Source of the DNA: Nitrospirota bacterium
Lineage (GTDB): Bacteria > Nitrospirota > Thermodesulfovibrionia > Thermodesulfovibrionales > Dissulfurispiraceae
NCBI GenBank assembly: GCA_023476565.1
Contig: JAMCVZ010000070.1
Span: 1-53,283, forward strand
DNA: 53,283 nt
Direction: 5' to 3'
A program made the translations under genes and the position numbers. The notes under the pieces are model-generated. The model saw only the letters and a program-made list of their open reading frames with translations. It searched no databases and was not told where the DNA came from. Positions 17,484-52,334 of this stretch are shown here, in pieces. Each line of letters begins with the position of its first letter. Within the stretch, counting starts at the first letter, position 1.

Positions 17484-20138
17484 ATGGAGCAAAATATCAG
17501 TGAAATTCTGTGCCATAAGGCTGAGGAGCTTATCCGATTGGGACTTAACGGCCCATCAGTTGCCGGGCAATTGACAGATACCGTAGATAAACTCCTGATT
17601 TCAGCATATGAATCAGCGGTAAAAGGCAGTCACAAGTTACGAGTAACAAGTAACAAGTTAAAAGACAAAGACTCCTCAGACTCGTCACTGTCTTCGGACT
17701 CATCACCTGACCTAGCCCTGGTTGCTGTCGGCGGCTACGGCCGGATGGAGGTCGCCCCCTATTCGGATATTGACATCATGCTGCTTGCGAAGAACAGGGA
17801 TAGTGTGAATACCGACGCAGCCCAGGATGTCCTGTACCGCCTGTGGGACATGGGACTGAATATAAGCCATTGCTTCAGAACGCTTCCCGAATGCATTGAG
17901 GACTCTCTGTCCGATCTTAAAACACGGACATCCCTTATCGAATCCAGGTTTCTCGCGGGAGATAGAGGCATCTTCGATGAATTCAAGAGAGATGTCTATC
18001 AGAAGATCCTGTTCAAAAACAAGAAGGAATTTGTGCGGGATATGCTGAGGGAGATAGATAGCAGGCACAAGACTTACGGAGATTCTGTATATCTGCTGGA
18101 GCCCGATATCAAAGAGGGGAGCGGCGGTTTGAGGGATGTCCATTCGGCGTCCTGGCTCGCGCGGGTGGTGCTGAGGCTGGGAGAGCTGAAGGAATTCCGC
18201 ACACTGTTGCCGGAGGGCGATTACCGGCATTTTATGAACGCCTTCGATTTCCTTCTGAGGGCACGCCTGTGCCTGCATCTCGCGTCAAAGAGAAGAAACG
18301 ATGTCCTTTCTTTCGAGTTCCAGGAGGCGGTAGCCCGTAGATTGGGGTTCAAGGATACAAAAAGATTTCTTTCCGAAGAAATAATGATGAGGCTTTATTA
18401 TAAAAAGGCCGGGAGCGTGACCGATGCCCTTAAAAGAATCATGAACATGAGCGGCAGGCAGTACCTCAAATCGTTTATCAATCTCACGCCTGATTTTTAC
18501 ATTAAAAAAATTACTGATGATTTTTATGTGTCCAGGAACGAGATTATCATCAAGGACAGCACTATATTCAAAAGGACCGATAAGATTTTAGAGGCGTTTT
18601 ATGTTTATTCCATAACCGGCAAGAAATTCAGCTATCAGGTGAGGGAGATTCTCAGGGGCCGGTCCCTTTTCATAAACAAGACAAGGGTGTCCGGAAAGGC
18701 AATACACTGCTTTCTCGATATCCTGAAGGGGGACAGGGTATATGAGACTTTGAGAGAGATGCACGGTACCGGCATCTTAGACAGGTTTATCCCCGAATTC
18801 GGCAGACTGAGGCATCTCGTGCTCTACGAGCCCTATCACCGGTATACTGTCGATGAGCACACCCTGATTGCTATTAAGAACCTGGAAGCGCTGAAAAATA
18901 CGCGCCACACGAAGCTCCGGCGCCTTGCCGGAATATTGAAAGAGGTGAAACAGGAAACTTTATATTTATCCGTCCTGTTGCACGATATAGGCAAGGGCCT
19001 GAGCGAAAAGCGCTTCGGCAGGCATGAGGATTCCGGATACAGAATGCTCAAAGGCATTCTGGAGAGATTCAATATCGGGGGCGCCGACAGGCAGAGGATC
19101 GAATTCCTGGTGAAAAATCATATTTTACTCTCAAAGCTGGCATTGGCACGGGATACCGATGCGCCGGAGACCGTAACGCAGCTCGCTGAAACGGTTGAAA
19201 CCGAAGAGAGCCTGAATGCATTATACCTGATGACGTATGCTGACATGACAGCAGTAAATCCCCACTTCTGGACGGAATGGAAGGCATACCTTTTTTACGA
19301 TATTTATAAGAAGGCCGTCGATCACCTGCGGGGCGTCAGGGGAAGGTACTACGATACGGCCGATGAAAAACTTAAAAAATTCATTGAGGACATGCCCGAA
19401 AGATACATAGTCTCGCGCTCGGATGAAATGATATATTCCGATTATGCTTTGACCGTACGCGCACAAGCCGGGCATGTCGCGATCTCTATCGACGACAGGC
19501 CGGACAGCACAGCGGAAATAGGTATAGCAACAGAAGATATGCATGGACTCTTTTCCAGGATTGTCGGCGCCTTGAGCCTGAGGGGGCTCAATATAGTGCA
19601 GGCAAGGCTTTATACCGGCAAAAGCGGTCTCGTTGTCGATAAGATCCTGGTGTCGAACTGGAAAGATATCTGGTGGCAGGGGATGGGGGAACAGATAAAA
19701 AATGATTTGAAAGAGGCGATATCACAACTAAGACAAGAGGCGGGGGACGGAAAATCCCTCTGCGAACCGGAGAAATCCACGGTTCCACGGTTCTCCGTGT
19801 CCCCGTTTCATGCAGAGTGCCTGTCGCCTGTTTCCAAAAGGCTCGAGCGCTTTGTTGAGATAGACAACGAGACATCCGATGAATACACTATCCTCGAGAT
19901 ATTTCTGCCCGACAGGCTTGGATTGCTTTACGATATTTCCACGCGGCTTTACAGGCATAAGGTGGACATCATTTCCGCGATTATCAATACCGAGGACGAA
20001 GTCGCCCGGGATGTTTTTTATTTGCAGCACTACGGCGGTAAACTTAATGCCGGGGTTGTTTTCAATGTTTTGAATGCGGTACGGGATATGGGGATCGGAA
20101 AGACGGAGGGCTGCGCGGCCGCAGCCGCCGGTTCCTGA
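17484..20138 (+). CDS. glnD: [protein-PII] uridylyltransferase / uridylyl-removing enzyme
   Basis: An 884-residue bifunctional nitrogen sensor that uridylylates and deuridylylates PII. The nucleotidyltransferase motif GGYGRMEVAPYSDIDIMLL is at about residue 82, the HD domain core LLHDIGKG at about 498, and two ACT domains (glutamine sensing) at about 662-725 and 800-850. Two segments look extra. Residues 48-72 (GSHKLRVTSNKLKDKDSSDSS) are encoded by a dispersed repeat that also occurs at 26.9 kb. The linker between the ACT domains contains a Ser/Pro-rich stretch (TVPRFSVSPFHAECLSP) that is longer than usual. Catalytic motifs are intact, so the enzyme is probably functional. The ATG at 17484 fits; promoter not resolved. 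Confidence 0.93.
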   Translation: MEQNISEILCHKAEELIRLGLNGPSVAGQLTDTVDKLLISAYESAVKGSHKLRVTSNKLKDKDSSDSSLSSDSSPDLALVAVGGYGRMEVAPYSDIDIMLLAKNRDSVNTDAAQDVLYRLWDMGLNISHCFRTLPECIEDSLSDLKTRTSLIESRFLAGDRGIFDEFKRDVYQKILFKNKKEFVRDMLREIDSRHKTYGDSVYLLEPDIKEGSGGLRDVHSASWLARVVLRLGELKEFRTLLPEGDYRHFMNAFDFLLRARLCLHLASKRRNDVLSFEFQEAVARRLGFKDTKRFLSEEIMMRLYYKKAGSVTDALKRIMNMSGRQYLKSFINLTPDFYIKKITDDFYVSRNEIIIKDSTIFKRTDKILEAFYVYSITGKKFSYQVREILRGRSLFINKTRVSGKAIHCFLDILKGDRVYETLREMHGTGILDRFIPEFGRLRHLVLYEPYHRYTVDEHTLIAIKNLEALKNTRHTKLRRLAGILKEVKQETLYLSVLLHDIGKGLSEKRFGRHEDSGYRMLKGILERFNIGGADRQRIEFLVKNHILLSKLALARDTDAPETVTQLAETVETEESLNALYLMTYADMTAVNPHFWTEWKAYLFYDIYKKAVDHLRGVRGRYYDTADEKLKKFIEDMPERYIVSRSDEMIYSDYALTVRAQAGHVAISIDDRPDSTAEIGIATEDMHGLFSRIVGALSLRGLNIVQARLYTGKSGLVVDKILVSNWKDIWWQGMGEQIKNDLKEAISQLRQEAGDGKSLCEPEKSTVPRFSVSPFHAECLSPVSKRLERFVEIDNETSDEYTILEIFLPDRLGLLYDISTRLYRHKVDIISAIINTEDEVARDVFYLQHYGGKLNAGVVFNVLNAVRDMGIGKTEGCAAAAAGS
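17629..17672. repeat. dispersed AAGTTACGAGTAACAAG repeat inside glnD
   Basis: The stretch contains CACAAGTTACGAGTAACAAG, then TAACAAGTTAAAAGACAAAG: tandem variants of a GTTAC/GTAAC-rich unit. A closely similar stretch lies at 26919-26963, and both are translated in the same frame as KLRVTSNKL. It sits in frame between the GlnD N-terminal helix and the catalytic motif. Confidence 0.65.
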
Positions 20139-23100: not shown

Positions 23101-24195
23101 CATTACCGCCTGTCGTCGGTCTCCGCCTATCTTTACGTTGATGAGGACAGGATCGTCCTGGACAGGCTCAACGGAAAATTTTCCGGCGGGGATGTCGTCA
23201 TGTCTGGAACGGCGTATCTTCAGAAGTTCGCCATAAAAAGATTCTCGCTCGAATCAAAGCTGAAAGGAATTACAGCTTCCGTATCAAAAGATTTATGGGC
23301 CAGTCTGGACGGGGAGCTTTATTATCGCGGCACCATGGATTCACAAACACTCTTGGGAGATATCGCCGTTAAAAGAGCAAAGTATACCGAGCGCATAGAG
23401 TGGAAGAGCTGGCTTTTCAGGACCCGCCAGAGGGAAAGGGCCAGGGTGGAACCTACAAAGATCGACCTGACGAATCTGAATATCAGGGTTACGGGGCCTA
23501 ATCTTACGATCGACAATAACGTTGCGAGAGCGGTGATGACGACGGATATCCTGCTCAGGGGGACTATCGGGCAGCCGATAGTTCTGGGCAAAATTGAAGC
23601 AAAGGAAGGAATTGTTTATTTCCGTAATAATGAATTTAAAATAGTGAAGGCCGCGGTGGATTTTTCAAATCCCAATCAGATACGCCCCTACTTCGACATC
23701 GTAGCGGAAACAAAGGTGAGAAGCTATAATATTAGGCTCAGCCTTGACGGGTATGCAGAGCAGTTCAATCTTTCCCTTTCGTCGGACCCGCTGCTGAACG
23801 AAGCGGATATTTTCAGCCTCCTTACCGTCGGGGACCTCGGCAAGAACCTCAAAGGGCTCGAAGGCGGTATCGGCGCCGGTGAGGCTACATCATTTCTCAC
23901 CGGCAAATTGCAGGATGTGCTCGAGGAGAGGGTAAAAACAATTACGGGATTCGATCGCGTACAGATAGACCCTTACGTATCAAGGTACACAGGGACCGTA
24001 GCCCCGCGGGTGACTATCGCCAAGAGGCTTATGGGTGACAAATTGTACGTGACGTACAGCACTTCAGTGACAACAGGCGAGGAACAGATATGGAAACTGG
24101 AATATCTCCTGGGGAAAAACATATCCCTTATCGGAGTAAGGGACGAACGGGGCGGACTCGGCGGCGATGTCAAATTCAGGTTTGAGTTCAAATAA
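20182..24195 (+). CDS. tamB: TamB-like translocation/assembly (AsmA-like) protein
   Basis: The ATG at 20182 (MKRKFTYIAI) gives 1337 residues; the frame upstream overlaps the end of glnD and is not needed. One N-terminal membrane anchor (YIAIIIIVFGLILYAL) is followed by very long repetitive beta-strand sequence typical of the AsmA/TamB bridge-like proteins. The C-terminal DUF490/TamB domain (about 1100-1337) includes EADIFSLLTVGDLG. These proteins span the periplasm and are linked to phospholipid transport and outer-membrane protein assembly. The gene overlaps the next, an Omp85 protein, by 29 bp, matching the common tamB/tamA pairing with the order reversed. Confidence 0.9.
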   Translation: MKRKFTYIAIIIIVFGLILYALRGPNISNQLKRLILPELELATGNKFIARKIYINIFPLFIEMKGIKAFDDNGNNILAAERAKGYIAVSGLFRKEIIIKRLVIKNPEIQSDRVQVEEIIANVKKRLAEPAKMPFKVIIKSVDVVNATLFLKDKDAEITLKGLNAEIIASDTTLFRISSEGVKIIKKGLPDLQGMIETLFVLKERRIEVKSLKIMSYKSEVRTSGVWWLEKLSGSFKTEMNIIVDSIKKIFGLKNSGEGTLSASGTIKIDDGSFSPGTIAVDLKLKGDLYLETLMELLAVKEKLKGHMSIKGALKGPLNNLKAEGNAELEKGNLFGVEVDRLNCGISYSDGAMHFNNARAALYKGTASAEAVISLPVVNYYSLHVKAKDVSSKGLFKLIGWDPRIPEGRANGEIESSGSSFNPHGTFDYRSIAAGRDIIGQVKELKGEFNMQGKVISFPRLFVSTGKSNLETAGEVDLRSNTLGLRGSGTATDINEFFSPYFTALSGTGSFLCSVTGPFQDPLIDIRFTSGKASLRTGNLGIPDVLKSRVINFDSAEGILSYKKNLLTVRGLSLRSAKEEFRASGNVRFEKARSLFELQSPDYDLNISVKNIDIKSLSGTFQDGPPFTGTMQADFRLYGKPGDIRADGDVHAGNLSWNGVYSVDAGGKASYKMRAFSFSALQVKRGNSELSLQGSLSLDKRFSFVAEGKRVTIADAVSDRQKEMLRTHYKELFVENFFDTISLMNLRVKGEGDFNNPHIELDGDVKSGTYRGRRLGKGDIHGTINNGRIDIDAHLFDRKMLVKGNATLNEKIPWAAHIELQPARYDFIIANFMKDVPDDLLLNMRGVIVAHGDKDRVDAVATIQKAHLYFYGTGFTNSSTIVAHLEDKKLSIESLSMKSDAAEFRLSGNVLIGKRYDLLFEGSSALSPLKALFKNIEVIKGNTSFVFSVTGGWDKPKVNGDMDVTSGTLGFKNFHYRLSSVSAYLYVDEDRIVLDRLNGKFSGGDVVMSGTAYLQKFAIKRFSLESKLKGITASVSKDLWASLDGELYYRGTMDSQTLLGDIAVKRAKYTERIEWKSWLFRTRQRERARVEPTKIDLTNLNIRVTGPNLTIDNNVARAVMTTDILLRGTIGQPIVLGKIEAKEGIVYFRNNEFKIVKAAVDFSNPNQIRPYFDIVAETKVRSYNIRLSLDGYAEQFNLSLSSDPLLNEADIFSLLTVGDLGKNLKGLEGGIGAGEATSFLTGKLQDVLEERVKTITGFDRVQIDPYVSRYTGTVAPRVTIAKRLMGDKLYVTYSTSVTTGEEQIWKLEYLLGKNISLIGVRDERGGLGGDVKFRFEFK

Positions 24196-26914
24196 GAAGG
24201 CCGGTGACAGGCTGCGGGTTAGAGGCAATGGGAAGGGTTGGCTCTTGTCCGTCATCCTTTTATTGGGTGCTGTTTTTTTCGTGCCGCCCGGCGCTGCCCA
24301 TTCACAAACTGCACCGGTACTGCCGCAGCCGATCATCAAGATAGAGATACAGGGGCTCTATTCAATCTCGAAAGAGGAGCTCCTCTATCTTCTGGGTATC
24401 CATGCAGGTAAGCCGCTCAACAAAGCTGAAGTGAGCGAGGGAATAAAAAGGGCATTCCTGAAAGGGATATTCGACGATATCAGCGTGGAAAGCCTCAATA
24501 AGAATGATACGGACATCAGGATTACGGTAAAAGAGAAGAAGATAATAAGCCGCGTAGAGATAAAAGGCAATGAGCATTTTTCGGACAGATTTATAAAGAA
24601 ACATCTCGGCATCAACAAGGGCGAACGGTTAAGCATTTTAAAAATAAGGAGCGGGATCAAAGACCTCAAGAGCGATTTGGGCATGAGAGGATTTGTGAAT
24701 GCAAACGTCGCCTATACCATAACGCCTGAAGAAAAAAACAGGGCCGGTATCGTTGTCGAAGTGCATGAGGGTAAACCTGAAATCATAAAAGACATTGTAA
24801 TCTCCGGGCCTGACGACATTGTAAAGTCGGACTTGAAACTCTCCAGGAACGATATCTTTGACCGCACAAAAATGGAAGCCTTAACAAAGAGAGTAACACA
24901 GCACTATAAAAAGGAGGGATATGTCGGAACCACACTGTCCTATTCTTACAGGGATGGGGCGCTTGAAATCAAGATGGACCCCGGGAAAAAGCTGGATATC
25001 ACGTTTAAGGGCAATACCGCATTAACGACAAAGGCGCTGATGAAGGAGGCGCCTTTTTTCGAGGTAAACGAATTCAGTGAGGACTTGCTGGAAGAAACGA
25101 CGGCAAGAATCGTATCGCTTTACCACAAAAACGGTTATCCCTTTGCCCAGGTCGCACCCATAAAATCATCTGCTGACCGTAATGTACATATAGAATTCTT
25201 TATATTCGAGGGAGAGCGGTATTCTGTAGACTCCATCAGATTCGAAGGGACAACCATTCCCCAGGAAAAACTGAGGAATATCCTTGCGATGAGGGCCGGC
25301 GATTACTACAATCCGGATCTCCTGGAAACGGATATGGACAACATTGCAGAGTTTTATCACGCACTCGGCTACCTGTATATGAGGATCCAGGAGCCTGAAA
25401 TAAAAATGCCCGACAAAAAGGTTGACCTTACCTTCATTATAGACGAAGGCCCCCAGGTGAATCTGAGCAGCATATCGGTCAAGGGCAACACATATTTTCC
25501 TGAAAATGAAATCATGAAGCACATTCCTCTGAAACCCGGGCAGCCCTATAATGAAGTGGATGTATCTGAAGCGAGAAGAAAAATCCTGGAATTCTATAAC
25601 AACAACGGCTTTCTGGATGCCGGGATCAATGTGGAGAGAGAGATTTCCGGCACGTCTGCGAGCATCGTTTTTGTTGTTCAGGAAGGGGATATTACCCTGT
25701 TCGGCAAGTCTATTATCATAGGCAACGAACATACAAAGCAGGAAATCATAAAAAGGGAATTTGTCCATAAGCAGGATAATCCGTTCGATTACAGTATGCT
25801 CCTGAAAGAGAGGCAAAGGCTCTACAGATCGGGCCTTTTCGCGGATATTGAGGTGTCGCCCCTGGAAAAAGAGGACCACAAGAAAGATATCCTCTACAGG
25901 TTTAAAGAAGCCAAGGCAGGCGCTGTGGAATTCGGATTAGGTTATGGCGAATACGAGCAATACAGGGGGTTCGCGGACATCAGTTACAGGAACCTGTTCG
26001 GTATGAACAAACAGGCATCCTTCAGGACGGAATTGAGCTCGCTGGAGCGGCGCTTCATTCTATCGTATCATGAGCCTCAATTTCTGGGCAGAGACCTTAT
26101 ATTCAGGACATTGCTCCTGCATGAAAACAGAAAGGAAGTAAACATAGATACGAGGGGGATAAGGTACAGGCTTATAAGGAATACGGTAACTTCGGGTTTT
26201 GAAAAGAGACTCAGCGATACCTTGAAATCCGAGATTTATTACGATTTCTCTGTTGTCAAGACCTCTGATGTCAAGCCGGATGTAGTGCTGAGCAGAGAGG
26301 ATGTAGGCACCCTTATCATAAGCAGTATTCGCCCCGGTTTGATATACGACACGCGGGATAATCCCTTCGAGCCCAGGAAAGGCATGCTGGCCGGGTTATC
26401 GTTCAAGCTTGCCTCTTCTATATTATTTTCAGAAACAGATTTCCTTAAAGCGGTATTTTATGTCAATAAATATCAGGCGCTCAGCAAGCGGCTGGTCCTC
26501 GCCGTATCGCTGAGGGGAGGCGCTGCGAACGGTTTTGGCTCAACGAGGGAACTGCCCCTCGTTGAAAGGTTTTTTCTCGGGGGGAGGACAACGGTGAGGG
26601 GATATGCACAGGACACCCTCGGGCCTAAGGGGGCCGATGGGACCCCCCTTGGCGGAAACGCTTTTGCTATGGGAAATCTCGAATTAAGGACCGACATCGG
26701 AAAGGGTATCGGGATTGTCACCTTCCTTGACGGGGGCAATGTGTGGAGGAAGAGCGCACAGGTCGATATAGCGGCTATCAAATATGCTGCCGGGTTGGGG
26801 TTGAGATACAACACGCCGGTCGGCCCTTTCAGGGTGGATTACGGGTATAAATTGAACAGAGAGAGGGGTGAGAGCAGCGGTGAAATACATTTCAGCCTTG
26901 GGCATGCATTTTAA
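24167..26914 (+). CDS. bamA: Omp85 family outer-membrane assembly protein with seven POTRA repeats
   Basis: A 915-residue protein. A hydrophobic segment (GWLLSVILLLGAVFF, about 25-40) serves as signal peptide; an internal start downstream of 24167 is possible because this one overlaps tamB. Seven POTRA-like units are countable, each starting with a strand such as IIKIEIQGLYSIS, SRVEIKGNEHFS, LSSISVKGNTYF or FGKSIIIGNEHT and closing with an EG/K turn, at about residues 54, 125, 204, 273, 349, 427 and 508. The barrel begins near 585, and the lid-lock motif appears as GGRTTVRGY. E. coli BamA has five POTRA units and TamA three. Neighbouring tamB argues for a TamA role; size and signature argue for BamA. 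Symbol tentative. Confidence 0.88.
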   Translation: MSNSGLSSNKKAGDRLRVRGNGKGWLLSVILLLGAVFFVPPGAAHSQTAPVLPQPIIKIEIQGLYSISKEELLYLLGIHAGKPLNKAEVSEGIKRAFLKGIFDDISVESLNKNDTDIRITVKEKKIISRVEIKGNEHFSDRFIKKHLGINKGERLSILKIRSGIKDLKSDLGMRGFVNANVAYTITPEEKNRAGIVVEVHEGKPEIIKDIVISGPDDIVKSDLKLSRNDIFDRTKMEALTKRVTQHYKKEGYVGTTLSYSYRDGALEIKMDPGKKLDITFKGNTALTTKALMKEAPFFEVNEFSEDLLEETTARIVSLYHKNGYPFAQVAPIKSSADRNVHIEFFIFEGERYSVDSIRFEGTTIPQEKLRNILAMRAGDYYNPDLLETDMDNIAEFYHALGYLYMRIQEPEIKMPDKKVDLTFIIDEGPQVNLSSISVKGNTYFPENEIMKHIPLKPGQPYNEVDVSEARRKILEFYNNNGFLDAGINVEREISGTSASIVFVVQEGDITLFGKSIIIGNEHTKQEIIKREFVHKQDNPFDYSMLLKERQRLYRSGLFADIEVSPLEKEDHKKDILYRFKEAKAGAVEFGLGYGEYEQYRGFADISYRNLFGMNKQASFRTELSSLERRFILSYHEPQFLGRDLIFRTLLLHENRKEVNIDTRGIRYRLIRNTVTSGFEKRLSDTLKSEIYYDFSVVKTSDVKPDVVLSREDVGTLIISSIRPGLIYDTRDNPFEPRKGMLAGLSFKLASSILFSETDFLKAVFYVNKYQALSKRLVLAVSLRGGAANGFGSTRELPLVERFFLGGRTTVRGYAQDTLGPKGADGTPLGGNAFAMGNLELRTDIGKGIGIVTFLDGGNVWRKSAQVDIAAIKYAAGLGLRYNTPVGPFRVDYGYKLNRERGESSGEIHFSLGHAF

Positions 26915-27458
26915 AGACAGTAACAAGTTACGAGTTACGAGTAACAAGTTAAAGACTAAAGACAAGTACCCGTTACTTGTCGGGTTGCTCGCTGCTTGTT
27001 ACTTGTTACTCGTTACCGCCTCCTGTTATGCCGGGCTTATCGACAGGGTGGTTGCATATGTAGACGAAACAGCGATTACGCTTTCGGAATTCCAGAAAAA
27101 CTATGCAAGGACGAAAGAGACCGTCAGCGACATATCGGGAGAAAATGTCCTGAACTCCATGATCAACAGCCTGCTGCTCCTCAAAGAGGCCAAGAAGATG
27201 AGACTTGAGGCGCCGACAAAAGACGAGGTAATAAAAGAGTACATCGATGTAAAAATCAAGTCGGCGATCATCATACGGGAAGAGGACGTTGAACGGTTTT
27301 ACAGAGAGCACACCGGGGACTTCAAAGGTAAGGATTACATATCTGTAAGGGACGAGATAGAACGGTATTTATTTGAGCTCGAAACCAACAGGCAACTGAA
27401 GAAACATCTCGACGAACTGCGGTCTCATGCGGAGATAAAGATACAACTGGCATCATAA
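26904..27458 (+). CDS. SurA N-terminal-like periplasmic chaperone
   Basis: With the ATG at 26904 (11-bp overlap with the Omp85 gene) the product has 184 residues. The mature part starts after YA and reads GLIDRVVAYVDETAITLSEF, the entry strand and helix of SurA/PpiD N-terminal chaperone domains, then helices including NVLNSMINSLLLLKEAKK. No parvulin PPIase domain is present, so it is a chaperone-only form; bacterial SurA-like proteins without PPIase are known. The signal peptide is unusual. Its n-region NKLRVTSNKLK and its core CYLLLVT are encoded by two arms of a dispersed inverted repeat. Placed after the Omp85 gene, it probably escorts outer-membrane proteins. Confidence 0.8.
   Translation: MHFKDSNKLRVTSNKLKTKDKYPLLVGLLAACYLLLVTASCYAGLIDRVVAYVDETAITLSEFQKNYARTKETVSDISGENVLNSMINSLLLLKEAKKMRLEAPTKDEVIKEYIDVKIKSAIIIREEDVERFYREHTGDFKGKDYISVRDEIERYLFELETNRQLKKHLDELRSHAEIKIQLAS
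26919..27016. repeat. inverted pair of GTTACGAGTAACAAG repeats in signal-peptide region
   Basis: The left block (26919-26950: AGTAACAAGTTACGAGTTAC, then GAGTAACAAGTT) and the right block (26995-27016: TTGTTACTTGTTACTCGTTAC) are inverted copies of the same short unit, separated by about 45 bp. The left block matches the glnD repeat at 17629-17672. Both blocks are translated in the SurA-like gene. It may be a folded mobile repeat that inserted at the gene boundary. Confidence 0.65.
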
Positions 27459-29908: not shown

Positions 29909-29920
29909 GTATCAACACCG

Positions 29921-30001
29921 GGGGACTGTCCCTATTTACCAACAGTAGGTGGTTTACCACGGACGAAGCAGCAGCGGAGTCGTAGAATAGGGACTGTCCC
30001 C
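29921..30001. repeat. GGGACTGTCCC repeat, long copy
   Basis: The left arm GGGGACTGTCCCTATT (29921-29936) and right arm AATAGGGACTGTCCCC (29986-30001) are inverted with one mismatch. A shorter copy with identical arms and the same GGAGTCGTAG centre lies at 52187-52235; this copy carries about 32 extra central bases. It is a short palindromic repeat family, possibly mobilised by a REP-type transposase elsewhere in the genome. Confidence 0.65.
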
Positions 30002-30091
30002 GAGACACGATGAGATAGGGATAAACCGTTATTCCCAGCCGGTATTGAGCACTGGAAAAAACCGTCCGTCTCCTCACCCGCGGCATAAAGC

Positions 30092-30174: not shown

Positions 30175-33100
30175 ATGGGGGTGACGAGAAGGGATTTTTT
30201 GAGGTTTTCAGGGGGAGCTGTTGTTGCAGGGTCAATCGGAATGGGCACTGCGCCGGGCAAAGCGGATGCCGCGGAACTCAGGATAAAAAACGTTCAGGAA
30301 ACACGCACTATCTGTCCGTTTTGCTCTGTCGGCTGCGGCATTATTGTCCATACAAAGAACGGCAAGGTTATCAATACCGAAGGCGACCCGGATCACCCGA
30401 TTAACGAGGGCTCGCTCTGTTCCAAGGGCGCATCACTCTACCAGCTTGTCAACAATCCCCAACGGTTAACCAGGCCAAGGCACCGGGCGCCCGGGTCTGC
30501 AGAGTGGAAGGAAGTGGAATGGGACTGGACATTGAATGAAATTGCAAAGAGAATCAAACAAACCCGCGACAAGACCTTTAAAGCAACATCGAAATCCAGA
30601 GTAAAAGAGAAATCTCCCGACGGCAATGAGACAGAGGTAGAGAAAGATTTCGTCGTCAACCGGATAGACAGCATTGCCCATATCGGAAGCGCCCAGATCG
30701 ACAATGAGGAATGCTACATCCTGCAGAAATGGCTCCGCTCTCTGGGGCTTGTCTATATAGAGCACCAGGCCCGGATATGACACTCCGCAACAGTAGCGGC
30801 TCTGGCAGAGTCGTTCGGTCGCGGTGCAATGACGAACCACTGGATTGACGTTAAGAATGCGGACGTCATCCTCGTGATGGGAGCCAACCCTGCTGAAAAT
30901 CATCCTGTATCCATGAAATGGATCATGAGGGCGAAGGAAAAGGGTGCAAAGCTTGTCGTTGTTGATCCCCGTTTCACGAGAACTGCTGCAAAGGCGGATA
31001 TCTATGCCCCCATGCGCTCCGGCACTGATATTGCTTTTATGGGCGGCATGATCAAATATATCCTTGAGCATAACCTCTACTTTAAAGAGTACGTTGTCAA
31101 CTATACCAATGCCTCATTCCTCGTGAATCCCGGCTATAAAGGCCCCGGCGAACTGAAAGGCCTTTTCTCAGGGTATGATGAAAAGACGAGGAAGTATGAC
31201 AAAAAGACCTGGTCGTTCCAGATGGATGAGAAGGGCTTGCCGAAGAAAGACCCGGCGCTCAAGGATCAGAACTGTGTTTTTCAACTGCTCAAAAAGCACT
31301 ATTCACGTTACACGCTCGATAAGGTCTCAAGCATCACCGGAACCCCGAAGGAAAAGCTTGTCGAGGTATATAAGGCCTTCGCTTCGACAGGAAAGCCGGA
31401 CAGGGTCGGGACCGAACTGTATGCTATGGGCTGGACCCAGCATACGGTCGGCACGCAAAATATCAGGGCGATGGCGATCATCCAGCTCCTGCTCGGAAAT
31501 ATCGGAATGGCGGGCGGAGGGATAAATGCCCTGAGAGGCGCATGCAATGTCCAGGGTTCAACCGACCACGGTCTCCTCTTCCATATATTACCGGGATATA
31601 TTCCCGTGCCTACCGCCTCAATCACGGATCTCAAGACGTACATTGAAAAACTTACTCCGAAAACAAAAGACCCTAAGAGCGTAAACTGGTGGGGGAACAG
31701 GGGAAAATACATTACGAGTTACCTTAAGGCGATCTACGGGAATCATGCCACTAAGGACAATGATTTCGGCTATGCCTGGGTTCCGAAACCGGATGAGGGA
31801 ATAAACGCCTCATGGCTTATGCTTTTCGACCGGATGTTCAAGGGAAAGTTCGAAGGCTTTTTTGCATGGGGGATGAACCCCGCATGCTCCGGCGCCAACT
31901 CGAACAAAGTGAGGAAGGCGCTTGCAAAACTGAAATGGATGGTCGACGTGGATTTATTCGATAATGAGACGAGTTCCTTCTGGAAGGGGCCCGGCATGAA
32001 TCCGAAGGAGGTTCAGACAGAGGTATTTTCCCTTCCGGCATGTTCCATCGTGGAGAAAGAGGGAAGCATTACGAATTCGGGGCGGCTTGCCCAGTGGCAT
32101 GATAAGGCTATTGAGCCGGTAGGAGGATCGAAGCCGGACTCTGAAATAATAAACGAGCTCTATTTCCGGGTGAAAAGACTGTATCGGAAACAGGGCGGCA
32201 AGCTCCCTGATCCGGTAACAAAGCTCACCTGGGATTATGGAGAAAAAGGCCCTGACGGAAAGATCAAAAAGATGGACATCCACCGCGTGGCAAAAGAAAT
32301 TAACGGCTATTATCTTGAAGATCTCATCGACAAGAAGGCTGCTCCTCCGAAGCAACTGGGCAAGAAGGGAGAGCTTTGCGCCACGTTCGTTCATCTGCAG
32401 AACGACGGAACGACCTCAAGCGGCAACTGGATCTACTGCCAGAGCTACACCCGGAAAGAGGGCAAGGTCATCAACATGATGGCAAGGAGGAAAAAGACAG
32501 ACCCTACGGGATTGGGGCTCTATCCTGAGTGGGCGTGGTGCTGGCCGGTGAACCGTAAGATAATCTACAACCGTGCGTCCGTTGACCTTCAGGGCAGGCC
32601 CTGGGATCCGAAACGTGCGGTGATAAAGTGGAATCCTGCGAAAGAGGACCCGAACACGAAGAAGCCGGGGGTCTGGGAGGGAGATGTCCCCGACGGTCCT
32701 GCGCCTCCGATGTCCGATGAGAAAGCCGGCAAATATCCATTTATCATGAGGCCGGATGGCATGGGAGCATTGTTCGGCCCCGGACTTGCCGATGGCCCGT
32801 TCCCGGAGCATTATGAAGCGCTGGAATGTCCGCTTCAGGAGAACCTTATGTCAAAACAGAGGATAAACCCTGCGGTCAAGCTCTTCTATGATAAAGCGGG
32901 CGGAGTGCCGGAAGATATATTTTTTTCATACGACATACGCTACCCCTATGTGGCGACAACGTATCGCGTCTCAGAGCATTGGCAGACCGGTGTATTTACA
33001 AGGCATGAGCCGTGGCAGCTCGAGATGATGCCCCAGCAGTTCGTCGAATTAAGCGAGGAGCTGGCAAAGGAAAAGGGGATCAAAAACGGTGACAAGATCA

Positions 33101-33339
33101 ACGTTTCCTCGGGCCGCGGCAAAATATGGGCAATAGCTGTAGTGACAGAGAGATTCAAACCCTTCAAGGTCGCCGGAAACACCGTACACCAGGTCGGATT
33201 GCCATGGTGTTTCGGGTGGCAATACCCTGAAGACGGGAGTGGCGGGGACAGTTCCAATCTCCTGACGCCCACTATTGGCGATGCCAATACCATGATACCC
33301 GAAACAAAGGCCTTTATGGTCAATGTTGAGAAAGCTTAG
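30175..33339 (+). CDS. fdnG: membrane-bound formate dehydrogenase alpha subunit, selenocysteine
   Basis: Reading the TGA at 30778-30780 as Sec202 gives one 1054-residue protein (E. coli FdnG is 1015). A Tat signal (TRRDFLRFSGG) predicts export to the periplasm. The [4Fe-4S] motif CPFCSVGCG ending in GSLC (residues about 44-82) precedes the active site HQARI-U-HSATVAALAESFGRGAMTNHW, which matches FdnG with Cys replaced by Sec. MGANPAENHP and VDPRFTRTAAKAD follow, and a C-terminal dinucleotide-binding domain ends the protein. It oxidises formate and feeds the beta and gamma subunits encoded just downstream. Gene ATG is preceded by GGAGG. Confidence 0.95.
30778..30814 (+). promoter_or_regulatory. 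selenocysteine TGA and SECIS hairpin of fdnG
   Basis: TGA at 30778-30780. An 8-bp stem (GCGGCTCT at 30796-30803 with AGAGTCGT at 30807-30814, two G-U pairs) closes the 3-nt loop GGC, which begins 24 nt after the UGA. Distance, loop size and loop guanines fit a bacterial SECIS. Confidence 0.85.
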
Positions 33340-52168: not shown

Positions 52169-52186
52169 CCACAAGATACACCCCCA

Positions 52187-52235
52187 GGGGACAGTCCCTA
52201 TTTACGGACGGAGTCGTAGAATAGGGACTGTCCCC
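52187..52235. repeat. GGGACAGTCCC repeat, short copy
   Basis: The left arm GGGGACAGTCCCTATT (52187-52202) and right arm AATAGGGACTGTCCCC (52220-52235) are perfect inverted copies around the centre TACGGACGGAGTCGTAG. The same arms and GGAGTCGTAG occur at 29921-30001. It lies between the lipoprotein and second fimT genes; the hairpin could end transcription of the pilus operon. Confidence 0.7.
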
Positions 52236-52334
52236 GGAGCAACTCAATTCCAAAGTTGACGGAATAGTAAGTACCCGCCTGAAAGTAATATGTAACTAAA
52301 AGCCCGCTGTATCCGGAATATATCAGGGGGGAAA

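Follow-up and report, generated by a model that had tools for sequence, protein, structure and literature searches.

Palindromic DNA that is translated within host genes has been reported from Rickettsia, Wolbachia and Methanocaldococcus jannaschii, alongside intragenic REPs and RPE-1 at the N-termini of expressed Rickettsia proteins (passages in PMC10969869, PMC3733652, PMC2996958, PMC5896051 and PMC4224334). The Rickettsia palindromic elements (RPEs; Ogata 2000, 2002, as recounted in PMC10969869 and PMC3733652) are palindromes of about 100–150 bp that form several families per genome and lie in frame in unrelated housekeeping genes, some of them N-terminally. GTAG/CGTC REPs consist of 20–40-bp units with a tetranucleotide tag; according to the sections of PMC3733652 that deal with them, their N-terminal copies were judged mostly not coding, and recB of two Xanthomonas species carries different REPs at about the same site. 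A search of the openly licensed literature returned no paper on Nitrospirae with coding palindromes.

Here, we analyzed a 53,283-nt stretch of DNA (the window) from a Nitrospirota bacterium. A repeated element found in it resembles the RPEs, as portrayed in these sources, in being palindromic, about 100 bp long and dispersed in many copies, and in lying in frame in unrelated functional genes with one preferred frame. It differs from them in its host, which is not one of the obligate intracellular Rickettsiales, in its arms of 7-bp units and in repeatedly forming export signals. The CGTC end tag of some RPEs (described in part of PMC3733652) is absent, the element consensus ending in TTAAAGACAGT and CTCGTCACTG. 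In its behaviour, the element resembles the protein-coding palindromes of Rickettsia, a likeness of description and not of sequence. The palindromic elements of Wolbachia (PMC4224334) and the coding palindromes of M. jannaschii (PMC2996958), likened to it by description as well, are likewise in frame in housekeeping genes; their hosts are others, and the pertinent passages of the two papers mention no role in export signals. With the REPs outlined above, the element shares palindromic build, dispersal, an occasional in-frame position in ORFs and the presence of different repeats at the sites of related genes. Unlike the REP/RAYT system as sketched there, its consensus spans about 100 bp, lacks a terminal GTAG and had no Y1 association in the regions examined. 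Bacterial MITEs, as summarized in PMC10969869 and PMC5896051, are likewise short and non-autonomous. They have inverted-repeat ends; those of the Nitrospirota element pair imperfectly and in some copies.

A preliminary description of the window had proposed that the signal peptide of a SurA-like chaperone is built from a dispersed inverted repeat, and this was borne out: the repeat is translated as n-region and hydrophobic core and is multi-copy in the genome. The start codon of the SurA-like gene (ATG, 26904–26906) overlaps the end of the bamA-type gene, eight bases ahead of the bamA stop (Table 1). Because the element lies just past this stop and yet downstream of the overlapping start, it is translated. 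In the resulting protein (MHFKDSNKLRVTSNKLKTKDKYPLLVGLLAACYLLLVTASCYAGLIDRV), the repeat copy accounts for residues 4 to about 40; a span of 26904–27060 had been given for it, and our model places it slightly inside these limits. By inspection and hydropathy, the N-terminus comprises a basic n-region, a hydrophobic core (best 12-residue mean 2.65) and a small-residue c-region. As originally read, the left arm encodes KDSNKLRVTSNKLK in the n-region and the inverted right arm ACYLLLVT in the core. The signal segment scored z = 4.9 for an inverted repeat, with 0 of 60 shuffles as good, compared with z = 0.6 for a control from the body of the gene. When the element was removed in silico, no hydrophobic core remained before the mature part. 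Judging by its sequence, the SurA-like protein is probably exported through the element-encoded signal. The right arm also contains GLLAA, a poor fit to the element that may be left over from a native core.

Table 1. Positions of the genes, element copies and signal-peptide parts discussed in the text, numbered along the window.
Feature	Position	Strand	Remarks
bamA-type outer-membrane assembly gene	24167..26914	+	identity from reading of the ORF; stop TAA 26912–26914
SurA-like gene	26904..27458	+	184 aa; Pfam SurA_N_3 1.1e-7
Palindromic element copy in SurA-like gene	26911..27023	+	model R1, 84.1 bits, E 2.2e-14 (own genome)
Left arm, basic n-region	26913..26963	+	encodes KDSNKLRVTSNKLKTKD; 84% identical to 17622–17672
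Right (inverted) arm, part of hydrophobic core	26995..27016	+	22 nt, 95% complementary to 17636–17657 (glnD)
Native-looking c-region around SCYA, before mature protein	27024..27035	+	putative cleavage site; SCYA also in palindrome-free ortholog G016
glnD	17484..20138	+	Pfam GlnD_UR_UTase 6.8e-30
Second element copy in window, in frame within glnD	17620..17713	+	R1 72.7 bits; frame open

BLAST against the 2.67-Mb genome (G000) gave 33 matches at E ≤ 0.001, the query included, and located copies of the element in 8 of 59 relatives. The reported occurrence of the repeat in glnD, translated in the same frame, was confirmed over 51 nt (reading KGSHKLRVTSNKLK) and is above chance (E 2.7e-10 in the whole genome). 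We then aligned 16 copies into a model of 100 positions, R1, which retained only 9 base pairs and is mainly a sequence model. With R1, the proposed genome-wide count yielded at least 125 matches representing at least 91 distinct copies at E ≤ 0.01 (best 150 of 874 candidates scored), with E down to 2.7e-21, and a match at E ≤ 1e-5 was present in 29 of 149 genomes sampled from the order. Rfam had no match within the window at the gathering threshold. The element is an imperfect palindrome of about 100 bp composed of 7-bp units (GTAAC/GTTAC), its consensus starting with TTAAAGACAGTAACAAGTTAC and ending with CTCGTTACTCGTTACTCGTCACTG; imperfect pairing between the ends AAAGACAGTAAC and GTTACTGCCTTT occurs in some copies. 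Its centre is common to the copies and non-repetitive (KDKKESEN). Translation of the purine-rich left arms gives a charged peptide (KDSNKLQVTSNELK) and that of the right arms, which are complementary to them, the hydrophobic SLLVTRYSLL, so that a single N-terminal palindrome can furnish an exported protein with both an n- and an h-region.

We could classify 88 of the 91 copies, the remaining three being without a locus. Half of these (44 of 88) lie in frame in 36 proteins with Pfam domains, 42 element-bearing proteins having been scanned. Scores of the flanking codons placed 33 of 88 copies within genes, and all 33 read the family peptide: 29 are in the KDSN phase by score and the other four show the same peptide on inspection (offset or other arm). 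According to the open-frame criterion, 53 of 88 are part of an ORF that continues for at least 60 codons beyond the start of the element. Frame +0 was free of stops in 37 coding copies, in which the other five frames averaged 1.4–3.4; in 20 non-coding copies, frame +0 was still open in 45% and the other frames in at most 10%. On our reading of the 7-bp array, TTA stands where frame +0 would meet TAA. Having one of six reading frames open, the element is probably tolerated within genes for this reason. Two copies each are present in RecN, an XerC-type recombinase and YbeY, and four in a CoA-activase (names from Pfam domains); further hosts are MnmA, alanine racemase, the CCA-adding enzyme, SMC, LeuRS, FolC, CarA, HypF, QueC, MurE, TsaD, GlyS and GlnD. 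NagA is added on our reading of a protein with no Pfam match. Four ORFs in the KDSN frame were set aside as probably spurious (C56:4675, C14:30283, C32:12603 and C16:33029), and the three of them that were scanned with Pfam gave no match. The CoA-activase (L157; BcrAD/DUF2229) is 1453 residues long, and its four copies are all in frame.

Comparison with SurA-like orthologs showed that palindromes recur at this position. An inverted repeat with z > 4 was present in the signal segment of 10 of 19 orthologs tested (G000, G001, G002, G007, G010, G013, G017, G030, G041 and G057), while z never exceeded 2.5 in the matching body segments; G027 and G042 were left out (body pattern failed or intervening stops). 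Of the 21 orthologs that have the bamA-end motif, 20 share the upstream ATG, palindrome-free ones included; the motif is absent in 3 of 22 loci, of which G001 was added by hand for the inverted-repeat test and L023 and L034 are uncounted. Palindromes of different lineages are unrelated in sequence: G030 and G017 have the AGGTTAAGG-type, G002 the ACGCGTTA-type, G013 the GCGTTAT-type, G010 the AGAGCAGTAG-type and G000, G001 and G041 the GTTACGAG-type. Alignment of the 5′ ends, as had been suggested, revealed that the signal sequence is not shared: it differs in orthologs that carry other repeats. When 12 ortholog signal segments were compared with their own genomes, matches elsewhere were found for at least 8 (at least one each in G030 and G003, two each in G002 and G010, three in G027, six in G026, seven in G013 and nine in G041); among the matches listed, there were none for G057, G022, G016 and G005. 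The listed matches fell on the signal part, except for one that hit the body of an ortholog. In genus g13, identity was 29–34% for signals and 79–89% for bodies; within genus g5, the values were 28–48% and 80–84% (near-identical pair G017/G030 left out). Since signal peptides normally evolve faster than mature proteins, these figures alone prove little, and it is the repeats that carry the proof. In G007 (L016), the same N-terminal position after bamA is taken by a much longer palindrome (up to about 250 bp; z = 18.9), whose ends bear the repeats GTCGTGTACGCAAATTGTTTC.

Signal peptides free of palindromes occur in G005, G016, G020, G040 and G052, indicating that a signal existed before or without the palindrome. 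The initial suggestion that the element created or replaced an export signal can thus be narrowed: replacement stands, and creation does not, because in palindrome-free relatives (G016, MHFKRHLTILFCLFLAAVLWMTAASCYAEV; G005; G052) the conserved start codon already leads into a signal peptide. By this comparison, the element appears to have overwritten the n- and h-regions of an existing signal, leaving the native-looking c-region SCYA. An assembly artefact at the SurA-like site was ruled out, as G001 of the same genus and G041 of another family also carry the element there and independent genomes have common sites.

The SurA-like case is not unique: this genome has the element in frame in about 36 Pfam-recognized proteins and in at least five further export signals, and relatives carry other palindromes at the position concerned. 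In G000, the element forms or enters the export signals of LptD, FlgH, RlpA (DPBB + SPOR), a TlpA-like protein and a pseudopilin. It also enters the N-termini of FlgH, LptD, two lipoprotein-like and two pseudopilin-like proteins of G001 (some names being our reading), and the signal of a FlgI-like protein of G041 (L041; our naming) reads wholly as element (KDTNKLRVTSCEFKNKVISLVTRYLLLVTLLITYHLSLITVVHA). With groups that we assigned after seeing the sequences, 6 of 11 N-terminal copies belonged to exported proteins, compared with 2 of 38 internal copies (Fisher p = 0.0007), and element parts were more hydrophobic in export signals (6 vs 43; Mann–Whitney p = 0.0013). Titles and abstracts of the openly licensed literature contained no relevant paper on palindromes or MITEs with signal peptides, and we found there no published precedent for a takeover of export signals by palindrome families.

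We consider it highly probable that the SurA-like segment is one copy of an imperfect palindrome of about 100 bp that has spread through the genome, is tolerated in genes via its single open frame and, when N-terminal in exported proteins, supplies their n- and h-regions. This reading builds on the observed family with its copies, frame and position, on the conserved start and on the different palindromes in the orthologs. A palindrome of 7-bp units would spread through the Nitrospirota genome, its in-frame copies being tolerated and its number increasing through transposition or gene conversion. In an exported protein, an N-terminal copy would provide the n-region with its left arm and the h-region with its right arm, and in the SurA-like gene substitutions may have made the right arm more hydrophobic (RYS to CYL). 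Dispersal suggests that the element is mobile. A Y1/RAYT transposase was rejected as the mobilizer: the regions around 20 of 22 Y1_Tnp matches of G000 and G001 contained no element copy, and G003 has many copies and no Y1 match. Neither a target-site duplication nor a transposase was identified, and the relatives are too diverged for empty sites at base level.

Other explanations account for part of these data. The position of the palindrome exactly at a gene boundary, the recurrence of unrelated palindromes there in relatives and the many intergenic copies would fit retention of the palindrome between bamA and the SurA-like gene as a hairpin in the RNA or an intercistronic element like the REPs, tuning mRNA stability or downstream translation, with coding as a by-product. 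The conserved start codon upstream of the palindrome, however, means that it is read as protein, and recN, leuS, mnmA and further genes carry the element just as readily in their middle parts, where a boundary role does not apply, so that we regard this explanation as unlikely. Less likely still is that there is no mobile element and that 7-bp tandem arrays arise by local slippage in tolerant sequence and resemble a family. The arms do have a 7-bp period, and the other repeat types that relatives carry at these sites likewise consist of short tandem units, but slippage would hardly produce, in dozens of genes, copies that match the 100-position model over its full length and share the same ends and a non-repetitive centre. 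Finally, translation might begin in or after the repeat, which would then be leader DNA outside the signal. The only candidate codons are two TTGs within the element, neither of them plausible; such starts would leave no basic n-region, and the upstream ATG is the one conserved even in palindrome-free orthologs. We therefore judge a downstream start very improbable.

The element family also offered a view of how insertion sites change with time. Ten genes were compared with G001, G002 and G005 in search of empty sites. In G002, recN, carA, alr and mnmA had a short or element-free loop, as did hypF of G001 and G005, and another repeat type occupied the same position in queC (e.g., DRDELSVMLNELK...ASRITHR) and leuS of G002 and in alr and part of carA of G001, indicating that the loops in which the element lies are variable and accommodate several palindromes. 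Where sequences were aligned (queC, leuS, recN, mnmA and alr), insertion was at an identical codon position. At 13 sites for which copies from both genomes were available, not a full census, same-site pairs of G000 and G001 were no more similar (0.679) than different-site pairs between the genomes (0.676; permutation p = 0.36); similarity of copies within a genome was 0.788 in G001 and 0.640 in G000, and the flanking gene DNA was 0.61–0.89 identical. These comparisons suggest turnover of the inserted sequence at insertion sites that persist between the two species. This would result from two separate hits at the same positions or from the overwriting of old insertions by the genome's current version, the latter being the more economical assumption. 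Tentatively, and with some doubt, the palindromes could be seen as standing rewritable protein segments: ancient sites would be kept and their DNA overwritten by the dominant family of the genome through gene conversion or hairpin-templated copying. Export signals would be preferred homes because palindromes of such build encode "charged then hydrophobic", and essential envelope proteins would thus have signal peptides that evolve by repeated overwriting. A second in-frame palindrome type (RNELSVMSNELK...ASRITHHAS) was noted in queC, carA, recN and alr (L153, L167, L177; orthologs L184, L185, L190 and L204) and is tandemly expanded in alr of G001.

So far, protein-coding palindromes were known mainly from intracellular Rickettsiales and scattered other cases. 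In this Nitrospirota genome, they pervade conserved genes, recur in the order and repeatedly form envelope export signals (SurA-like, LptD, FlgH, FlgI-like), which provides a testable route by which mobile DNA would supply targeting sequences. Single genera in which closely similar mature proteins bear signals from different repeats constitute a natural experiment.

Two further features were observed in the window. A second dispersed repeat of 28 nt occurs with 100% identity at 29975–30002 and 52209–52236, with a further pair at 29913–29939 and 52179–52205 and GGGACTGTCCC-type neighbours. A formate dehydrogenase-like gene (30175–33339), which presumably resembles E. coli FdnG, is split by an in-frame TGA at 30778–30780 (EHQARI-TGA-HSATVAALAESFGRGAMTNHW) that is probably a selenocysteine codon.
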